Positions 32,413-35,897 of a DNA stretch of 35,897 nucleotides are shown here, one piece after another. This DNA comes from Actinomycetota bacterium. GTDB lineage: Bacteria > Actinomycetota > Humimicrobiia > JAHJRV01. The stretch's first letter is position 1; the number at the start of each line of letters is the position of its first letter. A program made the translations under genes and the position numbers. A model generated the notes under the pieces. It ran no database searches and had not been told where the DNA came from. It saw only the letters and a list, made by a program, of their open reading frames with translations. Where the stretch lies: the NCBI GenBank assembly GCA_018830725.1, contig JAHJRV010000105.1, positions 1-35,897 on the forward strand, in the 5' to 3' direction.

Positions 32413-33182
32413 AAAAGAACTCATCTCTTTTGAAAGACGAGAAGTTGAAAAAAGGTAATGCAGTAGTGGAGGGAAGAAATACAGTTTATGAGGCATTAAG
32501 AGGACCACGCAAAGTAAAATTAGTATATATTGATAAATCTATTAGTAAAAATATCCGATTAAAACAGGTTTCAAATCTGGCTAAAGATAAATCAGTACAT
32601 ATTAAATTAGTAGATAGAAATTTCTTAAACAAAATTGGAACTCAACACCAAGGAGTAATTGCAATAACATCGCCATACAAATATTTCTCTTTATCCTCAC
32701 TTTTAAATGAAATTAGAAATAAGAACCCCGTAATTGTACTTTTAGATGGTATAAAAGATCCACAGAATTTTGGAGCTATACTTAGAACATGTCAAGCATT
32801 TTCTGTGGATGGAGTTGTAATTCCAGATAGAAGAAGTGCAAAAATTACCTCATCTGTTTGCAGAGCTTCCTCTGGTGCGTGTGAGCATTTGAGGATTGCA
32901 AAAGTTGTGAATTTAAACAAAGCTGTTGAGAAGTTAAAGGAGAAAGGTTTTTGGGTGATTGGAACCTCAGATAGAGCTGATATTTCAATTAACCAGATGG
33001 AAATCTTGTGTCCACTTGCTATTGCGATGGGAAGTGAACAGAAAGGAATAGGTAGACTTTTATTAAGTAACTGCGATTTAGTTGTTAAAATCAAGACTTC
33101 TGGAAAGATACCTTCATTAAATGTTTCAGTGGCAACGGGAATTATTCTGCATGAAGTAATGAAAAAACTTAAAAGAATATAA
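32409..33182 (+). CDS. rlmB: 23S rRNA (guanosine-2'-O-)-methyltransferase RlmB (TrmH/SpoU family)
   Basis: 257 residues. N-terminal substrate-binding domain (V-V-E-G-R-N-T-V-Y-E-A-L) then a trefoil-knot SPOUT domain: motif 1 L-D-G-I-K-D-P-Q-N-F-G-A-I-L-R-T, motif 2 A-I-A-M-G-S-E-Q-K-G-I and motif 3 S-L-N-V-S-V-A-T-G. It likely methylates G2251-type 2'-OH in the ribosomal P-loop using SAM; some homologues modify other sites. The TTG start overlaps the cysS TGA (T-TGA), so translation is coupled by termination-reinitiation. Followed after 17 bases by yacP, as in Bacillota. Confidence 0.93.
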   Translation: MKKNSSLLKDEKLKKGNAVVEGRNTVYEALRGPRKVKLVYIDKSISKNIRLKQVSNLAKDKSVHIKLVDRNFLNKIGTQHQGVIAITSPYKYFSLSSLLNEIRNKNPVIVLLDGIKDPQNFGAILRTCQAFSVDGVVIPDRRSAKITSSVCRASSGACEHLRIAKVVNLNKAVEKLKEKGFWVIGTSDRADISINQMEILCPLAIAMGSEQKGIGRLLLSNCDLVVKIKTSGKIPSLNVSVATGIILHEVMKKLKRI

Positions 33183-33199
33183 ATTAGGGGGTTAAAAAA

Positions 33200-33727
33200 G
33201 TGAATTCACCAACCGATGAAAAAACAATGGTTATAGTTGATGGTTATAACTATTTACACAGCACAATGAAAATGAACAAAATTTCTAAAATTGAACTTGA
33301 GCAACTTAGAAATAAGTTGATAGAGGATCTTAATCAATTGGCGATACATAAAGGTTGGTCAGTAACTGTTGTATTTGACTCATCAAACAAAGGCAATATT
33401 TTTTTGAAAAATAAGATAAAAAATAAAGTTACTGTTTCATTTACAAAGAAAGGGCAAAGCGCAGATAATCTTGCTGAGACTTTAGTTTATAAAAATAAAG
33501 GAAAAAGGATTTTTGTTGTAACATCTGATTATACTCACCAGAGGGTAACTTTTGGTGGAGGAGCTTTTAGAATGACAACAAGACAACTTAGAAGTCAACT
33601 AAAACAGTTAAAAAGAGAAATAAGAAGTAGAGATATTTTTTCTAATAAACTAAATGTACCTATAAGTAAAAGAATTGATAAAAAAATTGAAAGAAAGTTA
33701 GATAAAATAAGAAAGGGTAAAGTATAA
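33200..33727 (+). CDS. yacP: NYN-domain ribonuclease YacP/Rae1
   Basis: 175 residues, NYN (PIN-like) fold. N-terminal M-V-I-V-D-G-Y-N-Y-L-H with the first catalytic Asp, V-V-F-D-S-S-N as the second acidic strand, the S-A-D-N-L-A-E-T-L helix and V-V-T-S-D-Y-T-H-Q-R as the last acidic motif. The tail is strongly basic (K-R-I-D-K-K-I-E-R-K-L-D-K-I-R-K-G-K), fitting RNA or ribosome binding. The B. subtilis homologue Rae1 cleaves mRNA in the ribosomal A site. GTG start with AGGGGG eight bases upstream. Position between rlmB and sigH is the conserved one. Confidence 0.92.
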   Translation: MNSPTDEKTMVIVDGYNYLHSTMKMNKISKIELEQLRNKLIEDLNQLAIHKGWSVTVVFDSSNKGNIFLKNKIKNKVTVSFTKKGQSADNLAETLVYKNKGKRIFVVTSDYTHQRVTFGGGAFRMTTRQLRSQLKQLKREIRSRDIFSNKLNVPISKRIDKKIERKLDKIRKGKV

Positions 33728-33761
33728 GTTTAGCTTTACCCCTAAAATTAATGGAATTATA

Positions 33762-33791
33762 TTGACGAAGATTATTACATAAATATATAAT
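33762..33791 (+). promoter_or_regulatory. Promoter of the sigma factor gene
   Basis: TTGACG (33762-33767) and TATAAT (33786-33791) are spaced by 18 bases, a near-consensus sigma-A-type promoter. A second TATAAT abuts it at 33791-33796. Transcription should start near 33798, leaving a leader of about 95 bases before the sigma gene. Confidence 0.7.
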
Positions 33792-33815
33792 ATAATAGTT
33801 TTTACTCAACATTGT

Positions 33816-33867
33816 GGAGGTGAAGTTTTAAAAGACCTATAAAAGCTATATCTTAATAGCATTTTTT
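33816..33867 (+). promoter_or_regulatory. Possible leader region before sigH (orphan ribosome site plus hairpin)
   Basis: A strong GGAGGTGA (33816-33823) has no long ORF behind it. Further on GCTAT (33845-33849) and ATAGC (33856-33860) can pair and are followed by A then six T, which looks like a small intrinsic terminator before the sigma gene. This could be an attenuator, but the stem is only 5 bp. Confidence 0.35.
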
Positions 33868-33892
33868 CACTGTTTTTTCTTTATAAAAGGAT

Positions 33893-34558
33893 ATGAACTT
33901 GAACATCGAACTATCATATACACCAAAAAAAATTAAAAGTTACGAAGTCTTTGAGGAAAATCAAATAGTAGAAAGAGCTAAAGAAGGAGACGAGAGAGCA
34001 CTCAACTATATTTTAGGAAAGTATAGCAATCTTGTAAGGTATAAAGCTCGTTCATACTTTTTAATAGGGGCTGAATATGATGATCTAATACAGGAAGGTA
34101 TGATAGGTCTTTTTAAATCTATAAAGGATTTCAAAGCTGGTAATGAAACATCTTTTAAATCATTTGCTGAACTGTGTATAACAAGACAGATAATAACTGC
34201 TATTAAAAATGCCACTCGACAAAAGCATATTCCTTTAAACTGTTACATTTCGCTAAATAAGCCATTTTATAGCAATGAAGAAACTTCTTATCCACTTTTT
34301 GAAATACTAAAAATTAAGGAACTAAATGATCCCGAACAACTTGTAATAAGTGGCGAAGAGATTCAAAGTATTAAAGAAATATTTGAAAAGTTTTTATCAA
34401 AATTAGAGGCATCAGTACTAAGTTTGTATATAAAGGGAAAAACTTATATTGAAATTGCTCATACTTTGAACTTAAAAGTGAAATCAGTTGATAATGCTCT
34501 TCAGAGAATAAAGAGAAAATTAGAGACTCATCTTAACGGTTATAAATCTTTAACCTAA
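33893..34558 (+). CDS. sigH: SigH-type RNA polymerase sigma factor
   Basis: 221 residues of the sigma-70 family, group resembling Bacillus SigH. Region 2: E-R-A-L-N-Y-I-L-G-K-Y, the core-binding D-D-L-I-Q-E-G-M-I-G-L-F-K-S-I and the -10 reading F-K-S-F-A-E-L-C-I-T-R-Q-I-I-T-A-I-K. The SigH hallmark A-T-R-Q-K-H-I-P-L-N-x-Y-I-S-L-N-K-P follows. Region 4 helix-turn-helix: K-G-K-T-Y-I-E-I-A-H-T-L-N-L-K-V-K-S-V-D-N-A-L-Q-R near the end. The ATG at 33893 is only two or three bases from AAAGGA; a TTG at 33899 has better spacing. No spore gene is in the window, so a sporulation role should not be assumed. Confidence 0.92.
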   Translation: MNLNIELSYTPKKIKSYEVFEENQIVERAKEGDERALNYILGKYSNLVRYKARSYFLIGAEYDDLIQEGMIGLFKSIKDFKAGNETSFKSFAELCITRQIITAIKNATRQKHIPLNCYISLNKPFYSNEETSYPLFEILKIKELNDPEQLVISGEEIQSIKEIFEKFLSKLEASVLSLYIKGKTYIEIAHTLNLKVKSVDNALQRIKRKLETHLNGYKSLT

Positions 34559-34665
34559 TCTTTCAAAACCCTCTTAAGAGATTACAAAATTTTTTAAGGT
34601 AAATTTTTTTTATTGATCTGTTTTAATTAATAATATTTTTTAAAAAGTATAGATAACCCTCCCCC

Positions 34666-34692
34666 TATCCCCTCCCTTAATGGGAGGGGATA
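34666..34692. repeat. G/C-rich palindrome
   Basis: TATCCCCTCCC (34666-34676) pairs perfectly with GGGAGGGGATA (34682-34692) around a 5-nt loop TTAAT. It resembles the CTCTCCC/GGGAGAG palindrome at 3949-3978 and is preceded by another CCCTCCCCC unit, so both look like members of one dispersed intergenic repeat group. Confidence 0.7.
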
Positions 34693-34696
34693 TAGA

Positions 34697-34752
34697 TGTA
34701 GGGCAACCCTTTAGGGTTGCATTATTAAGCAAGGCTAAAGCCTTACCCTACA
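34697..34752. repeat. Compound palindromic element with terminal inverted repeats
   Basis: The ends TGTAGGG (34697-34703) and CCCTACA (34746-34752) are inverted repeats. They enclose two hairpins, GCAACCC/GGGTTGC (34703-34720, loop TTTA) and AAGGC/GCCTT (34731-34744, loop TAAA). The whole can fold as a three-way junction. No coding capacity; it looks like a small non-autonomous dispersed intergenic element. Confidence 0.7.
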
Positions 34753-34775
34753 TTTTAGTCTAGAGAATATGCTCA

Positions 34776-34824
34776 AATCTTTCAAGGGTTTTTATTTTTT
34801 AGTATAAAAATTTTTAGTATAATT
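34776..34824. repeat. 49-bp direct repeat, copy 1 (upstream of tRNA-Thr)
   Basis: 47 of 49 bases match 34959-35007. It contains two TTTAGTATAA-like units, the second giving TATAAT at 34818-34823. It ends 60 bases before tRNA-Thr(UGU). It may be a duplicated promoter segment. Confidence 0.85.
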
Positions 34825-34884
34825 GAAGTATAAAAATGCTATTATTTATATAAAAAAGTATTAGTTAAAAGGAACATCTAATAA

Positions 34885-34959
34885 GCCGGTGTAGCTCAGT
34901 GGTAGAGCAGCTGATTTGTAATCAGCAGGTCATTGGTTCAAATCCGATCACCGGCTCCA
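34885..34959 (+). tRNA. tRNA-Thr (anticodon UGU)
   Basis: Seven-base acceptor stem GCCGGTG/CACCGGC, discriminator T, encoded CCA (34957-34959). D arm GCTC/GAGC, anticodon stem GCTGA/TCAGC with loop T-T-TGT-A-A reading ACA codons, and a T arm with TTCAAAT. 75 bases including CCA. First of four tRNA genes before tuf, in the position of thrU in E. coli. Confidence 0.95.
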
Positions 34960-35007
34960 ATCTTTCAATGGTATTTATTTTTTAGTATAAAAATTTTTAG
35001 TATAATT
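34959..35007. repeat. 49-bp direct repeat, copy 2 (downstream of tRNA-Thr)
   Basis: Second copy of the repeat at 34776-34824 with two mismatches. It begins exactly at the last base of the tRNA-Thr CCA and ends 40 bases before tRNA-Tyr, carrying TATAAT at 35001-35006. Confidence 0.85.
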
Positions 35008-35047
35008 TTTTTAAACGAGAATTTTCTTTTTACCAAAATATGATTTT

Positions 35048-35133
35048 GGGGGAGTTCCCGAGTGGACAAAGGGGACAGACTGTAAATCTGTTGGTGTTTA
35101 CCTTCAGAGGTTCGAATCCTCTCTCCCCCACCA
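35048..35133 (+). tRNA. tRNA-Tyr (anticodon GUA)
   Basis: 86 bases with acceptor stem GGGGGAG/CTCCCCC, discriminator A and encoded CCA. The anticodon stem ACAGA/TCTGT encloses C-T-GTA-A-A. A long variable arm (class II) follows, typical of bacterial Tyr, then the T loop TTCGAAT. It lies between two Thr tRNAs like tyrU of E. coli. Confidence 0.95.
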
Positions 35134-35147
35134 TATTTTTTAATTAT

Positions 35148-35223
35148 GCCCGTGTAGCTCAGATGGTAGAGCATCTCCTCGGTAAGGAGAAGGTCACCGG
35201 TTCAAGTCCGGTCGCGGGCTCCA
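35148..35223 (+). tRNA. tRNA-Thr (anticodon GGU, C33)
   Basis: 76 bases with acceptor GCCCGTG/CGCGGGC (one T-G wobble), discriminator T and encoded CCA. Anticodon stem TCTCC/GGAGA with loop T-C-GGT-A-A, so position 33 is C rather than the near-universal U. D and T arms are regular (GCTC/GAGC; ACCGG/CCGGT). It starts 14 bases after tRNA-Tyr, surely cotranscribed. The tRNA-Gly that sits between Tyr and Thr in E. coli is absent. Confidence 0.93.
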
Positions 35224-35380
35224 GATTTGGGAAATATTTTGTCGATTGAATGAAAGGATTTTTAATATAAGTAATAAAATAAAATGATAAAATATAAATA
35301 ATAAAATTAATAACTTGTACTATAAACTAAATATGTTTACAGTTTACTGTTTAAAAAAGTAAGGTAATAAAAATATTTTA

Positions 35381-35434
35381 ATTTAGGAATAAATTAGAAA
35401 GAAACCCAACGGCTTCAGTCGTTGGAGGTGTCAC
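35381..35434 (+). repeat. 54-bp repeat, copy 1 (IS200/IS605 right-end-like)
   Basis: Differs from 35568-35621 at one base. The core is a hairpin CCAACGGC/GTCGTTGG with TTCA loop (one G-T pair), preceded by AGAAAC and followed by AGGTGTCAC. This layout (AGAAxCCC-stem-GGAGG-TCAC) is what I know from the right end and omega-RNA 3' end of TnpB-carrying IS200/IS605-type elements. No tnpA or tnpB is present, so at most these are isolated ends. Confidence 0.7.
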
Positions 35435-35460
35435 AAAGCAGAAAAAATGAATAATTGGGT

Positions 35461-35537
35461 GGCGGTGTAGCTCAGTTGGTAAGAGCACACGGTTCATACC
35501 CGTGGGGTCACTGGTTCAAATCCAGTCACCGCTACCA
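35461..35537 (+). tRNA. tRNA-Met (elongator, anticodon CAU)
   Basis: 77 bases with acceptor GGCGGTG/CACCGCT (first pair G-T), discriminator A and encoded CCA. Anticodon stem CACGG/CCGTG with loop T-T-CAT-A-C. It lacks the three G-C pairs and the 1-72 mismatch of initiator tRNA. It closely resembles elongator tRNA-Met of Bacillus rather than the lysidine-modified Ile. Bracketed by the two 54-bp repeats. Confidence 0.9.
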
Positions 35538-35567
35538 AATAAGTGTTTAACAATTTACAATTTTTAT

Positions 35568-35621
35568 ATTTAGGAATAAATTAGAAAGAAACCCAACGGC
35601 TTCAGTCGTTGAAGGTGTCAC
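35568..35621 (+). repeat. 54-bp repeat, copy 2 (IS200/IS605 right-end-like)
   Basis: Second copy, 187 bases downstream of the first and on the other side of tRNA-Met. A single G-to-A change shortens the hairpin stem by one pair. The flanking DNA differs between copies, consistent with two insertions or a tandem duplication that has diverged outside the repeat. Confidence 0.7.
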
Positions 35622-35625
35622 TGAT

Positions 35626-35656
35626 TTGCTATTGTATAATATAAATAGTATATAAT
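35626..35656 (+). promoter_or_regulatory. Possible tuf promoter
   Basis: TTGCTA (35626-35631) is followed by TATAAT at 35651-35656, with 19-base spacing that is longer than ideal. Another TATAAT lies at 35635-35640. The leader to tuf would be about 105 bases. Weakly supported; tuf may also be read from the tRNA operon. Confidence 0.3.
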
Positions 35657-35766
35657 ATTTAATTCTTAATTTAAATTTTCTTTTAAGATTTTTAAAAACA
35701 TATAATAATTAATTTTCAAACAAATATAATAGAATAAAAATCCATTAAAAAAATGGGGGGAAATAT

Positions 35767-35897
35767 ATGGCTAAAAAGAAATTTGAGAGAACAAAACCAC
35801 ATATCAATGTTGGAACTATAGGTCATGTAGATCATGGTAAAACAACCTTAACTTCAGCAATAACATATTGTCTAAGTTCAAGAGGTCTTGATGTAGA
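35767..35897 (+). CDS. tuf: Elongation factor Tu, N-terminal part (partial)
   Basis: The first 43 codons, running off the right edge. [20 protein letters not shown] and then V-D-H-G-K-T-T-L-T is the universal EF-Tu start, with the P-loop [10 protein letters not shown]-Tu carries aminoacyl-tRNA to the ribosome using GTP. The ATG has GGGGGG six bases upstream, a very strong ribosome site fitting a highly expressed gene. It follows the tRNA cluster as tufB does in E. coli. Domains II and III are outside the window. Confidence 0.97.

Follow-up and report, generated by a model that had tools for sequence, protein, structure and literature searches.

Two 48-bp repeats around a tRNA-Met gene of an Actinomycetota genome are probably core-deleted, terminal-only remnants of an IS200/IS605-type element

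The two near-identical repeats that flank a tRNA-Met gene in the window (the whole analysed stretch of 35,897 nucleotides, contig JAHJRV010000105.1 of assembly GCA_018830725.1; G+C content 32%) are probably terminal-only, core-deleted PATE-like elements, produced by the collapse in place of an inserted IS200/IS605-type element. Their origin from an IS200/IS605-type insertion is well supported, because the 48-bp boundaries, the TTAG target, the precise empty sites and the lack of target duplication all point to it.

A sequence-only reading of the window had noticed near-identical repeats around tRNA-Met, and this observation holds: a direct repeat of 63 nt with 94% identity lies at 35372-35434 and 35559-35621, the copies being in the same orientation and 187 bp apart from start to start, with the tRNA-Met gene (CAT; ARAGORN and Rfam) between them at 35461-35537 on the + strand, outside the element. 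Each copy contains AGAAACCCAACG, a hairpin with a TTCA loop and AGGTGTCAC, and the orientation is the same in both. Chance is excluded by far for these repeats, given the E-value of 6e-22 for copy 2 against copy 1 in the sequence search, the extra copies in the genome and a reversed control pattern giving 0 matches against 16. The same reading took a 54-mer as the unit; the repeat stands but its extent does not, since the TTTAG within the 54-mer is the target, and the comparison with empty sites gives a true unit of 48 bp, from GAATAAA to TCAC, inserted at 35387-35434 and 35574-35621 directly 3' of TTTAG.

On the + strand, copy 1 is preceded by its TTTAG target (35382-35386, with the cleavage site TTAG at 35383-35386) and is composed of a left-end segment GAATAAATTAGAAAG (35387-35401) identical to that of a tnpB element on contig C96 of the same genome, a left guide tetranucleotide AAAC (35402-35405) complementary to TTAG under the IS608 pairing rule, a hairpin CCAACGGCTTCAGTCGTTGG with a TTCA loop (35406-35425; DNA fold of -5.7 kcal/mol, z -1.93) homologous to both the left-end and the right-end hairpins of C96, and a right-end tail AGGTGTCAC containing the right cleavage site TCAC (35426-35434) and identical to the C96 right-end tail. 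Copy 2, also on the + strand, follows TTTAG at 35569-35573; the repeat comparison places its left-end segment and guide AAAC at 35574-35592, the fold and the alignment place its hairpin CCAACGGCTTCAGTCGTTGA at 35593-35612, and the alignment places its right-end tail AGGTGTCAC at 35613-35621.

Recombination between the two window copies would delete or double tRNA-Met. Between the window's own assembly (G000) and a second genome of the genus (G001, contig C106; L047), each copy has five differing positions, three of them in common (chance approximately 0.005), and such co-changing copies suggest gene conversion between them or parallel collapse. Another 54-nt direct repeat (94%), CTTTCAA...TTTAGTATAAAAATTTTTAGTATAATT, surrounds the first tRNA-Thr at 34771-34824 and 34954-35007 and is possibly duplicated promoter or spacer DNA.

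In G000 (1.44 Mb, 171 contigs) further copies were found on C43 and C5, together with partial matches on C96 and C125. Three of the four genomes of the genus carry the unit, with 16 units at 13 loci (four in G000, seven in G001, five in G003 and none in G002); a pattern search recovered the same 16, and every one is exactly 48 bp long. The target is retained on the left and the insertion lies 3' of it, with TTAG immediately left of 14 of the 16 units (the exceptions having TTAA and TTTG) and kept in the empty sites. Four of these sites are precise: (i) the G003_C55 unit, for which G001 and the window are empty, the latter at ATTAG followed by T (34860-34865 on the + strand, junction 34864/34865); (ii) the G001_C66 unit, empty in G000:C56 and G003:C49; (iii) the G001_C26 unit, empty in G000:C94; and (iv) the G003_C36 unit, empty in G000:C103, where the last target base is A for G. 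No target duplication was seen at the empty sites of these four 48-mers or at that of the C96 element. Two other units, G001_C73 and G001_C116, were not counted as precise, their relatives carrying other indels there. The window pair is common to G000 and G001 (C106); the tRNA-Met locus of G002 has neither copy, and its flanks have diverged too far for an empty site to be placed to the base. At one locus a unit follows TGTTAG in G003:C70 (L032), where G001:C112 (L077) reads TGTCAC; this looks like a scar made of the last bases of a unit that was lost by deletion between short TGT repeats.

Among 100 relatives, the only match outside the genus was weak and partial, so the family is a narrow one; among GTDB genome contigs matches occurred only in two same-genus MAGs, CSMAG_2450 and CSMAG_2074 (deposited as Actinomycetes), and the plasmid and phage collections gave none. 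A single 27-mer match in viral contigs, lacking the hairpin and the right end, was taken as chance. Of the 13 loci with units, five are situated no more than about 100 bp from a tRNA gene (the window tRNA-Met; L029, L031/L035 and L037).

The sequence-only reading reported neither tnpA nor tnpB on this contig, as we also found; the other contigs of the genome give at least six tnpB and two tnpA matches. It assigned the motif to the ends of TnpB-associated IS200/IS605 elements without their transposase genes and made this depend on a copy of the 54-mer beside a transposase gene or tnpB; both are borne out on C96, where the same end sequences flank a tnpB of this genome with identical boundaries. 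This parent is a tnpB-only IS605-type element of 1344 bp (554-1897 of G000:C96), with a tnpB of approximately 400 aa whose product has Cas12f1-like_TNB and OrfB_IS605 domains. Its left end, 5' of tnpB, reads TTAG followed by GAATAAATTAGAAAG-AAAC-CCGACGGCTTTAGTCGTTGG-ATGAATTGC, and its right end, 3' of tnpB, reads GAAG-CCAATGGCTTTAGTCGTTGA-AGGTGTCAC. The window units, GAATAAATTAGAAAG-AAAC-CCAACGGCTTCAGTCGTTGG-AGGTGTCAC, correspond to the C96 left end as far as the hairpin and then to the right end beyond it; they are not solo right ends, as had been suggested, but a left end and a right end joined at a common hairpin. G003 lacks the insertion at the orthologous site, where AAAGTCTAATTAG is directly followed by TAATTTACT; this base-precise empty site gives the parent a length of 1344 bp and boundaries that coincide with those of the 48-mers. 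No close copy of the parent TnpB was found among the 100 relatives, and no intact parent in G001 or G003, assemblies that are 85% and 65% complete. The C96 element breaks an open frame that in G003 (G003:C78:8949-9019; L112), as judged by eye, resembles one for a PIN-domain (VapC-like) protein.

The left-end and right-end hairpins of C96 are identical at 17 of 20 positions, with an identical run of 14 nt, so a deletion between them would drop the core and leave exactly 48 bp. In the mechanism that we propose, a tnpB-only, IS1341-like element would have entered the genome directly 3' of TTTAG through the single-strand pathway of a TnpA acting in trans; its subterminal hairpins, being nearly identical, would then have allowed slippage or recombination that removed the whole core (approximately 1.3 kb including tnpB), and the residue would be the left-end 5' segment, the left guide, a single hairpin and the right-end tail. 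The marks of insertion point to TnpA as the probable enzyme. Collapse in place is favoured as the usual route, because the right guide is lost, only one hairpin is left, and sites common to two genomes differ at positions where the left and right ends of the parent differ (AAAC in G001_C64 against AAAG..AATGG in G003_C47; AACGG in the window against AATGG in G001), as separate collapses with different crossover points would explain. The units would now be inert. Against collapse stands the count of one intact parent for 13 unit loci; among the genomes of the genus no site is full-length in one and 48 bp in another, and in-place collapse was not directly seen. Several other traits of PATEs are present: at 48 bp the units are too short to encode a transposase, their palindrome is related to both ends of an IS605-type element of the same genome, and the empty-site alignments reveal neither terminal inverted repeats nor target duplication. 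Core deletion through hairpin repeats, giving a 52-bp terminal-only form, was described for HqIRS46 and ISHwa23 of Haloquadratum (PMC3119063), and the anatomy of the 48-mers fits such a deletion between palindrome direct repeats exactly. A longer core-deleted relative lies at G000:C125:1-206 (L022), where the contig end cuts it off; its left end resembles that of C96 and is accompanied by a short core and a remnant of the tnpB 3' end.

Each IS608 cleavage site pairs with a tetranucleotide located 5' of the hairpin at that end, as AAAG:TTAC and GAAT:TCAA (PMC5934647), and from these two pairs TTAG is predicted to require AAAC, and TCAC to require GAAG. The hairpin feet of C96 are in agreement with this prediction (AAAC:TTAG on the left, GAAG:TCAC on the right), as are those of a second tnpB element on C59 (AAAG/TTAC and GAAG/TCAC), for which G003 has unrelated sequence and no clean empty site. 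Separate left and right hairpins, each with its matching guide, are found in C96 and not in the single-hairpin 48-mer. Among the 16 units the left guide is AAAC in 12, AAAG in three and AAAT in one, and none has the right guide GAAG, so under an IS608-type rule the right end cannot be defined by the unit itself; AAAC pairs with TTAG and not with TCAC. The three AAAG units (G000_C43, G003_C36 and G003_C47) sit at TTAG, with which AAAG does not pair; the simplest account of these guides is that a mutation, or a crossover located 5' of the hairpin, altered them once the element had inserted.

These data bear on a second explanation, that the 48-mer is itself a mobile non-autonomous element using TnpA in trans, its hairpin serving as the left end and the right guide being taken from another hairpin, for example that of a full-length copy or of another 48-mer within the TnpA dimer. 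All 13 loci, including the species-specific ones with precise empty sites, hold the 48-mer, only one full-length parent is known, no site has both forms, and for ISHwa23 six of six strain-specific insertions are of the 52-bp form, in which the authors saw a hint of mobility (PMC3119063). The missing pairing of AAAC with the unit's own TCAC, the absence of GAAG, the three AAAG units unpaired with their left-flank TTAG and the use of two hairpins, left and right, by the IS608 TnpA (PMC5934647) all argue the other way, and this explanation appears doubtful, if worth keeping in mind. That the 48-bp single-hairpin unit transposes as an entity of its own, which would rank with the smallest known, and borrows its right guide in trans is rather unlikely. 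The evidence on collapse against mobility is divided, and the authors of the Haloquadratum study faced the same dilemma over the 52-bp HqIRS46 and ISHwa23 forms (PMC3119063).

Y1 transposases are encoded in G000 (C79 and C100), in G001 (C88 and a fragment on C106) and in G003 (C72), with two weaker matches in G002. The HUH motif is altered to YIH in C79 (L040) and C88 (L098), to NVH in C72 (L097) and to YFY in C100 (L045), and is mostly HVH, HLH or HIH in relatives from the class; the altered proteins retain the C-terminal tyrosine motif. Three TnpA versions of the unit-bearing genomes were aligned and none was recognized as clearly active, a point against the proposed mechanism, but an intact one may be hidden by the incompleteness of these assemblies. 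Downstream of the HUH-altered tnpA on C100, a candidate IscB-like protein is encoded at G000:C100:27297-28535 (L045 2298-3536), judged by eye from a RuvC start and an HNH motif CAYCGK...EVEHIVPKSRGG.

One Y1 protein of G002 has an intact HUH, yet this genome has no units. This protein, and the short, hairpin-bearing, intergenic and dispersed character of the units, would suit a REP/REPIN family dispersed by a TnpA-REP (RAYT); the hairpin foot is AAAC and not the GTAG of such repeats, the two ends of the tnpB element explain the entire unit, and the lack of copies in G002 is also unfavorable, which makes this origin extremely improbable. The terminator-like stem followed by TTTCTTTCTA on the - strand, and the several other units near tRNA genes, could suggest a functional role at tRNA-Met, as a terminator, an attachment site or a tRNA-processing element, but the units occupy 13 unrelated loci, most of them with no tRNA close by, the stem lacks a following T-run on the strand that encodes the tRNA and tuf, and the tRNA-Met locus of G002 has neither copy; as the origin of the units we regard such a role as very improbable. 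Terminator, attachment site and REP/REPIN were set aside as origins on this evidence.

The copies had also been proposed to be small RNAs, that is, short omega-RNA genes guiding a TnpB encoded elsewhere, with the bases after TCAC as guide; at these loci the 3' end of such a putative RNA would read AGGUGUCAC plus the flank. The final 28 nt do match the right-end terminus of a tnpB element, and tnpB genes are present elsewhere in the genome. However, the reRNA of ISDra2 is approximately 150 nt long and includes the tnpB 3' end (PMC8612924), a scaffold absent here, where left-end and host DNA lie upstream of the right-end part of about 28 nt; the bases after TCAC vary by locus and match the unoccupied flank, and they represent no more than the sequence on the right side of the respective insertion. 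The covariance check proposed for omega-RNA gave no match, since in the Rfam scan of 33000-35897 at a permissive E-value only tRNAs were credible and no omega-RNA-like family appeared. A guide-RNA function found no support and is hardly credible. Because the tnpB 3' end is absent from the units, their likeness to omega-RNA, as judged from sequence, is that of a shared right-end hairpin and nothing more.

The closest known system is that of the terminal-only PATEs of Haloquadratum walsbyi (PMC3119063), which likewise have IS605/IS1341-type ends fused over a palindrome of some 20 bp that both ends share, a near-identical size (52 against 48 bp), an oligonucleotide target, no target duplication and strain-specific insertions. 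In contrast, the present host is not a haloarchaeon but an AT-rich bacterium deposited as Actinomycetes, and the sequence is unrelated; here, moreover, pairing shows that the right guide is lost, and no full and collapsed pair was seen at one site. With IS608 and ISDra2 the elements share insertion 3' of a short T-rich tetra- or pentanucleotide, subterminal hairpins, guide tetranucleotides 5' of these and a right end finishing in a TCA-type cleavage site, but the 48-mer is gene-free and reduced to a single hairpin with a single guide, and the only gene of its parent is tnpB. A PATE-like sequence of Halanaerobium hydrogeniformans (PMC7290912) also consists of bacterial IS605 ends without a transposase; at approximately 271 nt, in single copy, with a tnpB remnant and a right end of 160 nt, it is nearer to the C125 relative than to the 48-mer. 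The free-standing IS605B stem-loops of Borrelia plasmids (PMC2775950) are again IS605 hairpins without a transposase, found as separate left or right ones, whereas the ends here are fused with defined boundaries.

Taken together, these repeats are a bacterial counterpart to the terminal-only 52-bp PATEs known from Haloquadratum; their boundaries are defined to the base and their parent lies in the same genome. They also call for caution, in that a right-end-like hairpin beside TCAC is not by itself evidence for a guide-RNA gene. Finally, the fused end lacks a right guide and, if the units still move, TnpA must accept a guide in trans.
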